From the NCBI GenBank assembly GCA_021841025.1, contig JAKBWA010000086.1, positions 16,791 to 80,790 on the forward strand: a stretch of DNA of 64,000 nucleotides. Reading direction: 5' to 3'. The notes under the pieces were generated by a model. The model ran no database searches and was not told the origin of the DNA. It was given only the letters and a program-made list of their open reading frames with translations. Of the stretch, positions 3,439-8,847 are shown piece after piece (the stretch's first letter is position 1; each line of letters opens with the position of its first letter). This stretch comes from Bacillota bacterium (GTDB lineage Bacteria; Bacillota; Sulfobacillia; Sulfobacillales; Sulfobacillaceae). The translations under genes were made by a program, and so were the position numbers.

Positions 3439-4800
3439 TTACTGAGAAGAAATTTCTTCTAAACTTCGCCGATTCGTTTTCGGCCCGAGCGCTCCAATGA
3501 CTACCGCAACAGCCAACATGGCCAGAGATATAAAAACGAACACTCCCATTATTCCAAAGGGCTTAAGCAATGCCACAATGATAAAACCAACAAAGGCTGA
3601 GCTTAAACGGCTCCAACTATAGGTAAATCCGACCCCTGTCGCACGAATCCGCGTGGGATAGAGTTCCGCCTGATAGGAATGAAATAACGTACTAAACCAA
3701 TTATTCAAGAGCGTTATAACGATCCCGAAGACAATGATCCACAGTGGCACACGCATTTGTGCAAACAAGATGCCACTTAAACCGATAGCCAAAGACACTA
3801 CTACGATTTGCCATTTTCTCTGCCACCGATCAGACATGATCATACCAATAATGGGACCTAAAGGATTAAACAACGCGATCACAAACGTATAAAGCAGTGA
3901 GTGAATCAACGTAACCCCTTCACTCACCAAGAGTGTCGGAACCCATGCCGCAAATCCATAAAAGCCAATCGTCTGGAACAAGTTGAAAATTAACAGCATA
4001 ATTGTTCGCGCCCGGTACGGATCTTGCCAGATCTCATGAAAATAACCCCGGGCTTCTTTCTCTTCTGCTCCATGTACGGGAAGGGGCAACACACCGACTT
4101 GTGCTTGAACTTCCTCTTCAATGCCGCTCATCACAGCATGCGCTTTCGTGACATCACCATGATTTTCATACCAACGAGGAGATTCCGGCAAGCCTAACCG
4201 AATCCACCACACCACCACCGATCCCAAGGCACCAATCAATACCACCCAGCGCCACCCTGACATAAGAAAATCGGTAGGCACGAGGGCATAGGCCAAAAAC
4301 GCCACGACGGGCACCGCCCAATAAGTAATAAACTGGCTAAATGCGATGTAATATCCGCGGCGGGAGGCTGGTGTCATTTCGCTGATATAGGTATCAATAA
4401 TGACCAGTTGCGCCCCAACCCCGAACCCAGCACACAATCTAAAGAGGTCAATCCAGAAAGCATTTGGGGAAAAAGCCATAAAAATCGTAAATAATGAATA
4501 AATCAAAAGCGAATATACGTAAGCGTTTCGTCTACCGATTTTATCACTGATATTTCCGAAAATTGATGTTCCAAAAAACATTCCAAAAAATCCGGACCCA
4601 ACAAAATACGCTAAACCGGACACGCTCATAATTTTTGCGTGAACCAGTGCTGCTCCCACGGCTCCGGCCATAAAAAGTTCATAGAATTCGAAGAGCCCAC
4701 CGGTCGATACCCGGCTCACCAATGCTCTAAAATACGGTGCTGGCGGTAACCGATTCATGCGATCAGCAATGGTGAATTCTACTACCGATGTTTCAGCCAT
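3439..4800 (-). CDS. MFS transporter, sugar/acid porter type
   Basis: 453-residue carrier with two six-helix halves. The loop between helices 2 and 3 reads GNISDKIGRRNAY, the classical MFS motif A (G..[SD]..GRR), and RLGLPESPRWY after helix 6 is the PESPR-type signature of sugar and organic-acid porters. I start at the ATG at 4800 because AGGAGGAG lies 5-6 bases before it; the ATG 18 bases upstream has none. It is the last gene of the IclR-CoA-transferase-lyase operon and is most simply the importer for that pathway's substrate, likely an organic acid. The substrate itself is inference. Confidence 0.8.
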   Translation of the reverse strand: MAETSVVEFTIADRMNRLPPAPYFRALVSRVSTGGLFEFYELFMAGAVGAALVHAKIMSVSGLAYFVGSGFFGMFFGTSIFGNISDKIGRRNAYVYSLLIYSLFTIFMAFSPNAFWIDLFRLCAGFGVGAQLVIIDTYISEMTPASRRGYYIAFSQFITYWAVPVVAFLAYALVPTDFLMSGWRWVVLIGALGSVVVWWIRLGLPESPRWYENHGDVTKAHAVMSGIEEEVQAQVGVLPLPVHGAEEKEARGYFHEIWQDPYRARTIMLLIFNLFQTIGFYGFAAWVPTLLVSEGVTLIHSLLYTFVIALFNPLGPIIGMIMSDRWQRKWQIVVVSLAIGLSGILFAQMRVPLWIIVFGIVITLLNNWFSTLFHSYQAELYPTRIRATGVGFTYSWSRLSSAFVGFIIVALLKPFGIMGVFVFISLAMLAVAVVIGALGPKTNRRSLEEISSQ

Positions 4801-4851
4801 GATTTCTCCTCCTACCATGTGTGTTTGCGTAAAATCCTCTGGGGCTTTTGT

Positions 4852-5736
4852 CTAATCGTGTTCTGAGAATTTGGGCGGCGGCAAATGCCTATCCAGTACT
4901 GCCAGCAAATCTTTTTTCACCGACTCTAAAAGCGAAACATTGATGCCGGTTTCAATTCCCTGTGCGTGGAAAAATGTCACCAGGCGTTCCGTATCGAGAT
5001 TGCCGGCAGCACCAGGGGCATAAGGACACCCCCCCAATCCGGCGAGCGCCGATTCGAATCTTTTGACCCCATATTCGTATGCCATAGCCACATTAGCCAA
5101 TACCCAGCTTAAACGGTCGTGTAAATGAATGCCGAGGGGTAGTGTTCCCGCCATCTCCTTGATTTTTACCACCCGGGATTTTACTTCCCGGGGAGTCGCG
5201 GTGCCGAGAGTATCGGCAATACTTAGTTCATCAACCCCCATTTGCAGATAGGCTTCAGTCACTCTTTCCACCTGACTCAAGGGAACCACTCCCTCAAAAG
5301 GACAGGCAAACCCCGTACTAATGGCTCCCCTGACTTGAATCCCTGCCTCATGAGCAATCCTGGTAGCCTCCTTCAATAGGGCCAGTGTCTCGGATTGTGA
5401 TCTATTCAAGTTCTCCCGGTTGTGGCTCTCAGATGCTGAAACCACGATTGTCACTGTATCAGCGCCGGCCCGAATGGCGCGCCAGGCACCTTTGGGATTG
5501 GGTACTAAAGCCACCAACTCAGCATCCAAATCCCGGACACGCCCGAACAATAGATCTCCATCAGGTAAAAGCGGAATCCACCGGGGATGCACAAAAGCCG
5601 TGACTTCAATCGCACGCATTCCTGCAGCATAAAGTCCTTTTACCAGCGCTACCTTATTTTCTAAGGGGACATATCCCGAAGCATCCTGCAGCCCATCTCT
5701 CGCGGTTACGTCCGTAATTTTGACAGATTCGATAAT
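4852..5736 (-). CDS. HMG-CoA lyase-family enzyme, ATT start
   Basis: TIM-barrel lyase that cleaves 3-hydroxy-3-methylglutaryl-CoA or a related acyl-CoA into acetyl-CoA plus a keto acid. From the proposed ATT start it has 294 residues, normal for the family. It carries RDGLQ (13-17; catalytic Arg and metal Asp), the metal motif HLHD (about 204-207) and the active-site loop GLGGCPYAPGAAGN with the catalytic Cys at about 237. The first ATG in frame (5619) would remove 39 residues including RDGLQ. An in-frame TGA lies just upstream, leaving no ATG/GTG/TTG. AGGAGG sits exactly 8 bases before ATT. The gene is co-oriented with the CoA-transferase and amidohydrolase, so it probably cleaves the CoA ester made there. 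Confidence 0.85.
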   Translation of the reverse strand: MIESVKITDVTARDGLQDASGYVPLENKVALVKGLYAAGMRAIEVTAFVHPRWIPLLPDGDLLFGRVRDLDAELVALVPNPKGAWRAIRAGADTVTIVVSASESHNRENLNRSQSETLALLKEATRIAHEAGIQVRGAISTGFACPFEGVVPLSQVERVTEAYLQMGVDELSIADTLGTATPREVKSRVVKIKEMAGTLPLGIHLHDRLSWVLANVAMAYEYGVKRFESALAGLGGCPYAPGAAGNLDTERLVTFFHAQGIETGINVSLLESVKKDLLAVLDRHLPPPKFSEHD

Positions 5737-5768
5737 ACCTCACACCTCCTTCACATCTCCTTACCGTT

Positions 5769-6863
5769 TCAGATCAGCACATCTTTAATCACTTTCCCTT
5801 GGGCCATCACCAATACCGGTCTCCACATTCCATTACCTATCACGTTGTGACCATCGAGATCATAAAATTTCACGCGGCGAGGCCAATATCGCAGCACCAC
5901 CACAGAGTTGGACGGCAAATGGGCGGAATAATACTCAAACGGTCTTTTAACAACGCCTTGGTAGAGTTCGGGCCAGGACAACCCTCCTGCCACCAGTTTC
6001 GAACAAAGAAATGCCAAGTCATATACGGGACTTTTTCTCCACGTCAATCCGGTTAGATCGGTGCTGATCATATGGGGTCGAAGGCCCTCAGCATAGAGAC
6101 GGAAAAATGTCGACCATGAAAAATGCCGAGATCCGTGCCCCACGTCCAAAATCACGCCTTTCGCAACCGTATCGAATAGAGCGTTCACTAGTCTTCTTCT
6201 CGCCGTCAAAGATCCCCTTTGTCCATGAAACACATGGGTGATTACATCACGGCCCTCAAGGGCTTCCAGGATTTCTTCCAGAGGCAAAAAGGTTCCTGTG
6301 ATATGAACCATCAGAGGAACCTTGCAGTACCTGGCCAGCCTTAAGCCCGCTTTCCACAGTCTTTGGTCCTCCGCCAGGTCATGTTGGCCCAATCGTATTT
6401 TGAGACCTGCTCTTTCGTCGCCTAAACAATTGATTGTCCTGAAGATTTCCTCTGATTGCCCGTCCGTTAAGCCGTCAAAATAGGGCACGTAAGGATGTTG
6501 GGCTAATCCATCCTTAATCACTGACAACCACACTTTGATCATCGGCAATTGACCATCTTGTGCAGAAGACGAGAAATGCTCCCATCCTCTGGTACCAGCA
6601 TCGCCAACTAGCATCACGCCAGATGACAAGAGTTCCTTTGAAGCAACGCCAATGGTTGGCAAAGTGTCATGCTCAGGCCTAACATGGACATGAAAGTCTG
6701 CCAGGCCGGGAAATACGACGTCAGTCTCCCGTAAGGTAATGATCCTATCTGGCAAATCCTTAACCGCGATGCTCATATCGCCTGGAAGAAGCGGCTCGCC
6801 GTCTTCGCTAAATCGTTGGCCCCCCTGGATCTGCCACGTTCCCACCGACCCGTCCTCCTCCAT
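5769..6863 (-). CDS. Amidohydrolase/deacetylase-family metallohydrolase
   Basis: 364-residue amidohydrolase with the dihydroorotase-like barrel. Visible ligands are HVH (about residues 58-60, in PGLADFHVHV), a probable bridging Lys in AGLKIRLG, H in LMVHITG, H in THVFHGQRG, DVGHGSRHFSW and the final Asp in ISTDLTG. These segments match the metallohydrolase branch annotated as amidohydrolase/deacetylase; substrates of that branch are mostly unknown. I start at the ATG at 6863, which overlaps the CoA-transferase stop by one base (TAATG), a translational-coupling arrangement. A GTG 27 bases upstream lacks a ribosome binding site. It may release an acid from an amide or lactone for the next enzymes; that is inference. 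Confidence 0.75.
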   Translation of the reverse strand: MEEDGSVGTWQIQGGQRFSEDGEPLLPGDMSIAVKDLPDRIITLRETDVVFPGLADFHVHVRPEHDTLPTIGVASKELLSSGVMLVGDAGTRGWEHFSSSAQDGQLPMIKVWLSVIKDGLAQHPYVPYFDGLTDGQSEEIFRTINCLGDERAGLKIRLGQHDLAEDQRLWKAGLRLARYCKVPLMVHITGTFLPLEEILEALEGRDVITHVFHGQRGSLTARRRLVNALFDTVAKGVILDVGHGSRHFSWSTFFRLYAEGLRPHMISTDLTGLTWRKSPVYDLAFLCSKLVAGGLSWPELYQGVVKRPFEYYSAHLPSNSVVVLRYWPRRVKFYDLDGHNVIGNGMWRPVLVMAQGKVIKDVLI

Positions 6864-8062
6864 TAACGAATAATCCCGGCTTCTCGCCACTGTATCAAAT
6901 CCTCAGATGATGCCTGAACGAACTCTTGGAGTACTTCATCGGTATTTTGGCCAATACTTCCACCGGACCAGCGAATGTGTCCGGGATGTCTAGACAATCG
7001 TGGTACGACCCCAAGCATGCCGACTTCTTCGTGTCCTATACCGGGGACGTGTTCTATGAGAGCGCGTGCCTTAACTTGCCTATCCTGAACAATATCTTCT
7101 GCGCTCATGACCGGTCCCGCCGGAACTCCGATTTGGGTTAAGATCTCCATGAGTTCCTCCAAAGCATATTGAGACGTCCAGTGGGCAATTATCTCATCTA
7201 ATATGGCCGCATGACGGACACGTCCGGAATTGGTCCTAAATCGCTCATCTTGCACGATATCTTCTTGATCCATAGCCTTCATTAACAAGTGAAAGGTTTT
7301 GGGACTATTAGCGCCAATAGCAATCCAGCGGTTGTCTCGGGTCGCATAGGTGTTGGAGGGTGCAGCTCGCAGCAACTGGTTTCCGGTCCGCTCTTGCACA
7401 ATGGAGGCGTTAACATATTCGGGAATCAAAGCTTCGGTAATACTCAACACAGATTCCGTTAACGCGACATCAACATGCTCGGCCTGCTGAGATGGGCCGT
7501 GATCACGTTTGTAAAGAGCGAGTAAGGCACCGATGACTGCTTGTAGAGCAGCCAACTCATCCCCTAAGGACACCCCAGTGCGAACCGGTGGCCGGTCGGG
7601 AAAACCAGTGATGTAGCGTATGCCTCCCATAGCCTCCGCAATATTCCCAAAGCCTGCCCGGTCACGGTAAGGTCCTGTGAGTCCAAATCCAGAAATACTC
7701 ACATAGATGATTTTGGGATTGAGTCGTGAGACCTGATCGTATCCCAAGTTCCATCTATCAAGCTGTCCCGGTCGTAAATTTTCAAGGATCACATCGACTT
7801 GACTGACTAACTTGCGTATAATCTCCTGACCGGCTGACGTTTTCAGATTAACCGCAATCAACCGCTTGTTGCGCGATTGCGTCATCCACCACCATGAGGA
7901 GCCCGAAGGTGCCAATTTCCCCCACTTGCGCAGGGGGTCGCCGTCTAGAGGCTCCACTTTGATCACATCAGCACCAAAATCCGCCAAAATACGTCCTGCA
8001 GAAGGCGCAGCCACCAACTGTCCCAATTCCAGTATGCGGATGCCGTCCAACGTCTGCGCCAT
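6863..8062 (-). CDS. CaiB/BaiF (family III) CoA-transferase
   Basis: 399-residue class III CoA-transferase, which moves CoA between carboxylic acids through an aspartyl-CoA intermediate. The N-terminal ILELGQLVAAPSAGRILADFGADVIKVE block is diagnostic. The catalytic Asp is predicted at residue 168 in GVSLGDELAAL, and the glycine loop lies at SISGFGLTGPYRDRAGF. The ATG at 8062 has an ideal AAGGAGGT site. It follows the IclR gene by 41 bases and is coupled to the amidohydrolase. Together with the lyase it suggests activation of a branched dicarboxylic or hydroxy acid (for example hydroxymethylglutarate- or citramalate-like) followed by C-C cleavage. The exact acid cannot be read from sequence. 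Confidence 0.88.
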   Translation of the reverse strand: MAQTLDGIRILELGQLVAAPSAGRILADFGADVIKVEPLDGDPLRKWGKLAPSGSSWWWMTQSRNKRLIAVNLKTSAGQEIIRKLVSQVDVILENLRPGQLDRWNLGYDQVSRLNPKIIYVSISGFGLTGPYRDRAGFGNIAEAMGGIRYITGFPDRPPVRTGVSLGDELAALQAVIGALLALYKRDHGPSQQAEHVDVALTESVLSITEALIPEYVNASIVQERTGNQLLRAAPSNTYATRDNRWIAIGANSPKTFHLLMKAMDQEDIVQDERFRTNSGRVRHAAILDEIIAHWTSQYALEELMEILTQIGVPAGPVMSAEDIVQDRQVKARALIEHVPGIGHEEVGMLGVVPRLSRHPGHIRWSGGSIGQNTDEVLQEFVQASSEDLIQWREAGIIR

Positions 8063-8103: not shown

Positions 8104-8847
8104 TCACGACATGCTGGGAAAATCTTGTATAGTGTGTTCAATGAGTCTGGCTTCGTGTTGCAATGAATGGATCATGCAAGTCACCCTTTCCTGGGTAAAC
8201 CGTTGTTTAGGGCCGGAGATACTGAGAGCAGCATGCACTTCTTGGTTAACGAATATGGGCACACTAACCGAAGCTAAAATCGGATCGCGTTCCCCGAGGG
8301 TCACGGCCCAACCTTGGGCCTGAATACGCGACCAATCGGGCAACGGGTGAGACTCCCCAATCTGAGTGGCATTCACCGAGGCCGCAACCAGATCCTGACG
8401 CTCATGGGGCGCAGCCCATGCTAACAAGATTCTGCCTGCGGATCCCACGTGTAGAGGCATAGGAACCCCTACCGCTACACTGTGACGCACATCCTCCAGG
8501 CCTTCCTGCCTAACGATACACACCCGTGACGCCCCAATGCGCACGTAGACACTTGCCGTCTCACGAAATTCTCGAACCAATCGCTCTAAGCTAGGTCGAC
8601 TCAATCTCTCCAGACTCAATTGAGGCTGAACACGACTCACCCATTTAAGAAGCCTCGGCCCAGGCTGATACTCTTCTGTCAACACCCCTTTGTCCATCAA
8701 GGTCTTGAGAATGCGGTAAACGGTAGTACGCGGCAACTGCAGTTCTTTAGCAAGCATTGTAGGATTAACAAAATCTCCGGACGTCAGAGTATCCAGCAAA
8801 TCGATCATCTTGGCAATCACAGCAACATGGTTTTTATCTGTCCGCAT
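8104..8847 (-). CDS. IclR-family transcriptional regulator
   Basis: 247-residue regulator with an N-terminal winged helix-turn-helix (about residues 12-65, recognition helix around LPRTTVYRILKTL) and a C-terminal GAF-like IclR effector domain. The effector region has the usual HVGSAGRILLAW stretch and the ...ALSISGP segment near the end. It is first in the operon and transcribed in the same direction as the pathway genes, so it likely autoregulates and controls them in response to the pathway acid. A good sigma-A promoter lies just upstream (8882-8910). Family is certain; the ligand is unknown. Confidence 0.88.
   Translation of the reverse strand: MRTDKNHVAVIAKMIDLLDTLTSGDFVNPTMLAKELQLPRTTVYRILKTLMDKGVLTEEYQPGPRLLKWVSRVQPQLSLERLSRPSLERLVREFRETASVYVRIGASRVCIVRQEGLEDVRHSVAVGVPMPLHVGSAGRILLAWAAPHERQDLVAASVNATQIGESHPLPDWSRIQAQGWAVTLGERDPILASVSVPIFVNQEVHAALSISGPKQRFTQERVTCMIHSLQHEARLIEHTIQDFPSMS

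Follow-up and report, generated by a model that had tools for sequence, protein, structure and literature searches.

A gene for an HMG-CoA lyase-family enzyme in a Sulfobacillaceae genome has no canonical start codon in front of its conserved N-terminus, and it probably encodes a functional enzyme with a real AUU or AUC start, AUC being the less likely of the two. The gene lies on the minus strand of a 64,000-nucleotide stretch of contig JAKBWA010000086.1, referred to here as the window. The gene and the parts of its start region are as follows, in window coordinates.

4852..5736, minus strand: HMG-CoA lyase-family gene, 294 sense codons from ATT or 293 from ATC
5734..5736, minus strand: ATT, the likeliest start codon, 8 nt past AGGAGG, the modal spacing of the genome
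5731..5733, minus strand: ATC, alternative start codon, sequence-aligned with the ATG of close orthologues
5743..5751, minus strand: extended Shine-Dalgarno (SD) sequence AAGGAGGTG, a 9-nt anti-SD match
5750-5745, minus strand: AGGAGG core of the SD, 8 nt before ATT and 11 nt before ATC
5742-5740, minus strand: in-frame TGA, which excludes every start further upstream
5617..5619, minus strand: ATG, first in-frame canonical start, without a usable SD and at a cost of 39 residues
4852-4854, minus strand: TAG, stop codon

The lyase and its start region

After the TGA, the frame reads GGT ATT ATC GAA TCT GTC AAA ATT ACG GAC, and no in-frame ATG, GTG or TTG occurs between the TGA and the ATG at 5619, which lies 39 codons downstream of the ATT at 5736. 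A sequence-only reading of this DNA had held that the TGA leaves only ATT or ATC as a start, which the sequence and coordinates bear out. The same reading placed AGGAGG 8 bases before the ATT; this spacing is correct, and the match even extends to AAGGAGGTG.

The protein read from this frame passes the curated cut-off of NCBIfam NF004283 (PRK05692; 287.7 bits, cut-off 246), matches Pfam PF00682 (HMGL-like) with 140.8 bits and aligns over residues 4-286 with PDB 1ydo (2.4e-61). The hallmarks of HMG-CoA lyases are present, namely the N-terminal Arg-Asp, the HxH metal site and a Cys-containing G-loop, GLGGCPYAPGASGN, and its RDGLQ, HLHD and GLGGCPYAPGAAGN motifs align with 1ydo, 6nds and 1ydn. 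A start at 5619 would remove an N-terminus that includes the conserved VKITDVTARDGLQ; the Arg-Asp pair in this motif is retained only if translation starts upstream of that codon. Two more HMGL-family genes of the same genome (L002 on C106 and L003 on C116), at ~40% identity, have an ATG in frame.

The lyase gene belongs to an operon within a conserved cluster.

8104..8847, minus strand: IclR-family regulator, head of the conserved cluster (PF01614, PF09339; synteny)
6863..8062, minus strand: CoA-transferase family III gene, same operon (PF02515, 384 bits; synteny)
5769..6890, minus strand: amidohydrolase/deacetylase-like gene, same operon, upstream of the lyase (profile matches below curated cut-offs; synteny)
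3439..4818, minus strand: MFS transporter gene, same operon, downstream of the lyase (PF07690, PF00083; synteny)

The CoA-transferase III and MFS neighbours fit the use of an imported acid by the predicted HMG-CoA lyase, although its substrate could possibly be something related to HMG-CoA instead. In a congener, G006, two near-alike CoA-transferase/amidohydrolase/HMGL/MFS operons (L008 at G006:C1:208988 and L013 at 499155) lie ~290 kb apart.

The assembly contains no 16S gene, so we assumed a generic Bacillota-type anti-SD tail. With this tail, the lyase SD has a duplex energy of -16.3 kcal/mol, above that of 97.7% of this genome's genes; only 2.3% have an SD as strong. The 90 nt around the start are less structured than expected from shuffling: folding was as strong or stronger in 194 of 200 shuffles. 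Among the 637 AGGAGG-type sites of this genome, a spacing of 7-8 nt was found in 264 (41%) and one of 11 nt in 37 (6%). The commoner spacing favours ATT over ATC, and both codons may be used.

Orthologues, coding signal and known systems

Searches of the genus, family and class, together with a named-genome collection, yielded 13 distinct lyase orthologues. The order IclR, CoA-transferase III, amidohydrolase-like, HMGL, MFS is kept in most orthologous loci with flanking sequence, so the compared genes are true orthologues. The sequence-only reading had suggested comparing the start codon in related genomes: an ATG was present at the aligned place or within a few codons of it in all 13 orthologues, and the non-canonical start was conserved in none (0/13). 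The change of start codon is therefore specific to this genome. SD duplex energies of the orthologues ranged from -9.4 to -17.6 kcal/mol. An exact-pattern scan of viral contigs, aimed at a second sequencing of the same species, gave no match.

Two orthologues, L054 and L055, read GGAGGTGTGAGG followed by A ATG GAA/GAT, whereas the window reads GGAGGTGTGAGG followed by T ATT ATC GAA. The spacer from SD to start, TGTGAGG(A/T), is common to the ATT of the window and the ATG of both orthologues. By alignment, the SD and its 8-nt spacer match up, with replacement of the ATG and a gain of three bases; ATC is the codon aligned by sequence and ATT the codon at the conserved spacing.

Constraint on the N-terminus was visible against the closest relative, G003. 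Over residues 3-39 of the lyase, the two genomes are separated by 17 synonymous and 4 nonsynonymous changes (dN/dS 0.042), compared with a dN/dS of 0.126 for the remainder of the gene. The low ratio in these 37 codons before 5619 indicates constraint on protein rather than on DNA, and hence that the N-terminus is translated. The earlier claim of a conserved N-terminus, in frame and intact upstream of the first ATG, holds in light of these constrained codons and the collinear PDB alignment.

To place the lyase among the genes of its genome, 1405 gene-like ORFs were screened in 1.82 Mb, including the window, of the 3.39 Mb genome. The lyase had by a wide margin the strongest coding signal before a first canonical start among these ORFs (11.6 bits; the next had 8.1). 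Together with an SD whose strength is equalled in only 2.3% of genes, this top signal shows that the lyase pattern is not due to chance. A strict screen of the 1.82 Mb asked for a strong SD, followed by ATT, ATC or ATA and then 15 or more codons of coding sequence before the canonical start. Besides the lyase, it retained two loci, a sigH-like sigma factor gene and a cyanophycinase gene. Fifteen control codon sets, including CTG, ACG, AAG and AGG, returned no further locus in this screen, with the lyase and cyanophycinase recurring at neighbouring codons. A wider SD screen recovered infC, an internal positive control. Weaker candidates such as L136, L098, L187 and L202 were dropped, as their extra N-terminus scores negative and a canonical start follows closely.

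AUU, AUC and AUA initiate translation weakly, and IF3 discriminates against them. The AUU or AUC start of infC, found in E. coli and Streptomyces, is conserved, and in E. coli it is autoregulatory. Like infC, the lyase has a near-cognate start behind an SD that differs from AUG only in its third base. Unlike infC, it has such a start in this genome alone and does not encode a translation factor. The sequence-only reading had described ATT starts as known mainly from infC, a view now out of date: non-canonical starts have been reported for pcnB, for S. aureus cvfC1 (AUU), ccpN and citZ (both AUA) and for Listeria rnhC (ATC) (PMC13009471, PMC13068326), and also arise in the rsbW mutants described below. 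Taken alone, the lyase is a single-genome case of an already known type of start (infC, pcnB, ccpN, rsbW mutants).

In S. aureus, AUU and AUA starts with extended SDs reach ~10% of AUG efficiency (PMC13009471). As proposed for the lyase, an extended SD offsets the weak codon in ccpN, cvfC1 and citZ. The last of these is a metabolic gene whose AUA start is confined to one strain lineage (PMC13009471). It thus resembles the lyase in encoding a metabolic enzyme and in having a non-canonical start limited to one lineage, and conservation of the codon is not universal among known cases. The S. aureus starts were located by ribosome profiling and tested in reporters, whereas that of the lyase is predicted from sequence. 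In Streptomyces, sigR starts with GTC after an extensive ribosome-binding site, AGGAGGTG; it is repressed by IF3 and has been misannotated by gene callers (PMC5472188). The extensive binding site ahead of a non-canonical start that misleads gene callers is shared with the lyase, but sigR differs in its GTC codon, its conservation across Streptomyces and its demonstrated IF3 repression. In Listeria, six conserved genes have fixed non-canonical starts, and changes of the rsbW start from ATG to ATA or ATT were acquired under selection (PMC13068326). The rsbW mutants parallel the lyase in a one-lineage, third-base change of an ATG start as a means of lowering expression; unlike the lyase, they arose under laboratory selection and their effect was measured.

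We suggest that the ancestral lyase gene had an AUG at this place, which was replaced in this genome. The 9-nt SD match, lying in an unstructured region, would position the initiator tRNA at this near-cognate codon. The strong SD would thereby rescue the weak AUU or AUC, at a lowered output of full-length enzyme, perhaps one-tenth of that from AUG. We infer both initiation at the ATT or ATC itself and its efficiency. Initiation would be expected to be sensitive to IF3, and IF3 control of this start is plausible. The stop codon of the amidohydrolase-like gene lies 32 nt before the ATT, so reinitiation could help.

Possible error, start loss or internal initiation

An ATG at or beside this column in every relative could also mean that the true genome has a normal start, an ATG at 5731-5733 whose G was read as C through a sequencing or assembly error. 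A single C to G change at the ATC restores the relatives' ATG GAA TCx GTC, and the non-ATG lyase start is known from one assembly only, a draft of 118 contigs that, also lacking a 16S gene, is probably metagenome-derived. However, the site is also set apart from those of the relatives by a change of 3 bases in length and by its stronger SD, and the neighbouring genes align with G003 unbroken over nearly their full length. Random errors would also yield CTG, ACG, AAG and AGG starts, none of which the screen found in 1.82 Mb, while further AUU, AUC and AUA (AUH) starts of this genome recur in independent genomes. An error at this site is thus unlikely.

The restriction of the change to this genome would likewise fit a recent mutation that destroyed the start codon, leaving little or no enzyme and a pseudogene in the making, with the two distant HMGL-family paralogues (~40% identity, in-frame ATG) remaining. 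Against this, the ORF runs for 294 codons without a stop or frameshift, its catalytic and other active-site residues are kept and dN/dS is low, although a very recent loss would look identical. A very strong and optimally spaced SD also still precedes the ATT. We regard start loss as somewhat less probable than an error in the assembly.

Translation from the ATG at 5619 into a 255-residue protein is very improbable. Although no canonical start comes earlier in the frame, this ATG has no SD at usable spacing, a protein begun there would lack the first strand, which carries the conserved Arg-Asp, and the constraint on the 37 codons ahead of it would have no explanation. A frameshift from the out-of-frame GTG at 5743 was rejected, as this codon lies ~1 nt from the SD and no slippery site is present. 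The sequence-only reading, in which the enzyme starts at ATT or ATC and standard callers truncate it, agrees with the homology, the N-terminal constraint, the SD and its spacing.

AUU, AUC and AUA starts elsewhere in the family

Four further genes of this genome have starts of this kind.

G000:C59, start at 2455, minus strand: sigH-like sigma factor gene (L208; congeners L209-L215)
G000:C8:18987, plus strand: cyanophycinase gene (L220; relatives L221-L226, L228-L250)
G000:C19:10897, plus strand: ferritin-like two-domain gene (L251; congeners L252-L256)
G000:C102:5517, plus strand: infC (L029; family members L059-L087)

In each of the eight genus genomes, the sigH-like gene reads ATT TCG at this position, after GGGGGAGG or GGAGGAG, and in four of them no in-frame canonical start lies upstream. 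For the cyanophycinase, the codon before GPLLIIGG is ATA, ATC or ATT in 7/7 alignable genus members; it is never ATG, and it lies 8-9 nt past GGAGG in most of the family. Across the 25 aligned family members, 20 have ATA, ATC or ATT with the ATG two codons earlier either absent or abutting the SD, while the other five have that ATG at normal spacing. In some members, a TTG or GTG further upstream, ahead of the SD, is a possible alternative start. Five of six congeners start the ferritin-like gene with ATC or ATT, and its paralogues (L257-L259) have GTG. The infC start is ATT in this genome, and most family members use either ATT or ATC; an ATG or GTG lies two codons upstream in four family genomes.

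Doublets of AUH codons (ATT ATC, ATC ATC, ATT ATT) recur at the non-canonical starts, including that of the window (5731-5736). They were seen in infC (L059, L061, L075, L080, L081, L084, L086, L087), in the cyanophycinase (L228, L235, L247, L248, L250) and in the ferritin-like gene (L252, L255).

The sigH-like, cyanophycinase, ferritin-like and infC starts are conserved across independent assemblies, which excludes sequencing error as their cause and shows AUH starts to be in use in this lineage, with initiation at AUU, AUC and AUA recurrent in the family. The conserved starts of the cyanophycinase, sigH-like and ferritin-like genes are a stronger result than the single-genome lyase case. They raise the prior for an AUH start in the lyase, short of proof. 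More speculatively, infC, the sigH-like, cyanophycinase and ferritin-like genes and others might form a conserved AUH set whose joint output is set by the level of IF3, with the lyase a recent recruit in one species; we consider this possible but doubtful.

Gene callers weigh only ATG, GTG and TTG, so they would either clip the catalytic N-terminus from a functional metalloenzyme such as this or declare the gene broken. Our results suggest that one bacterial family uses AUU, AUC and AUA starts in several conserved genes. In the cyanophycinase, most family members retain a non-AUG start codon whose third base drifts between T, C and A, a pattern that selection for a weak start might produce.
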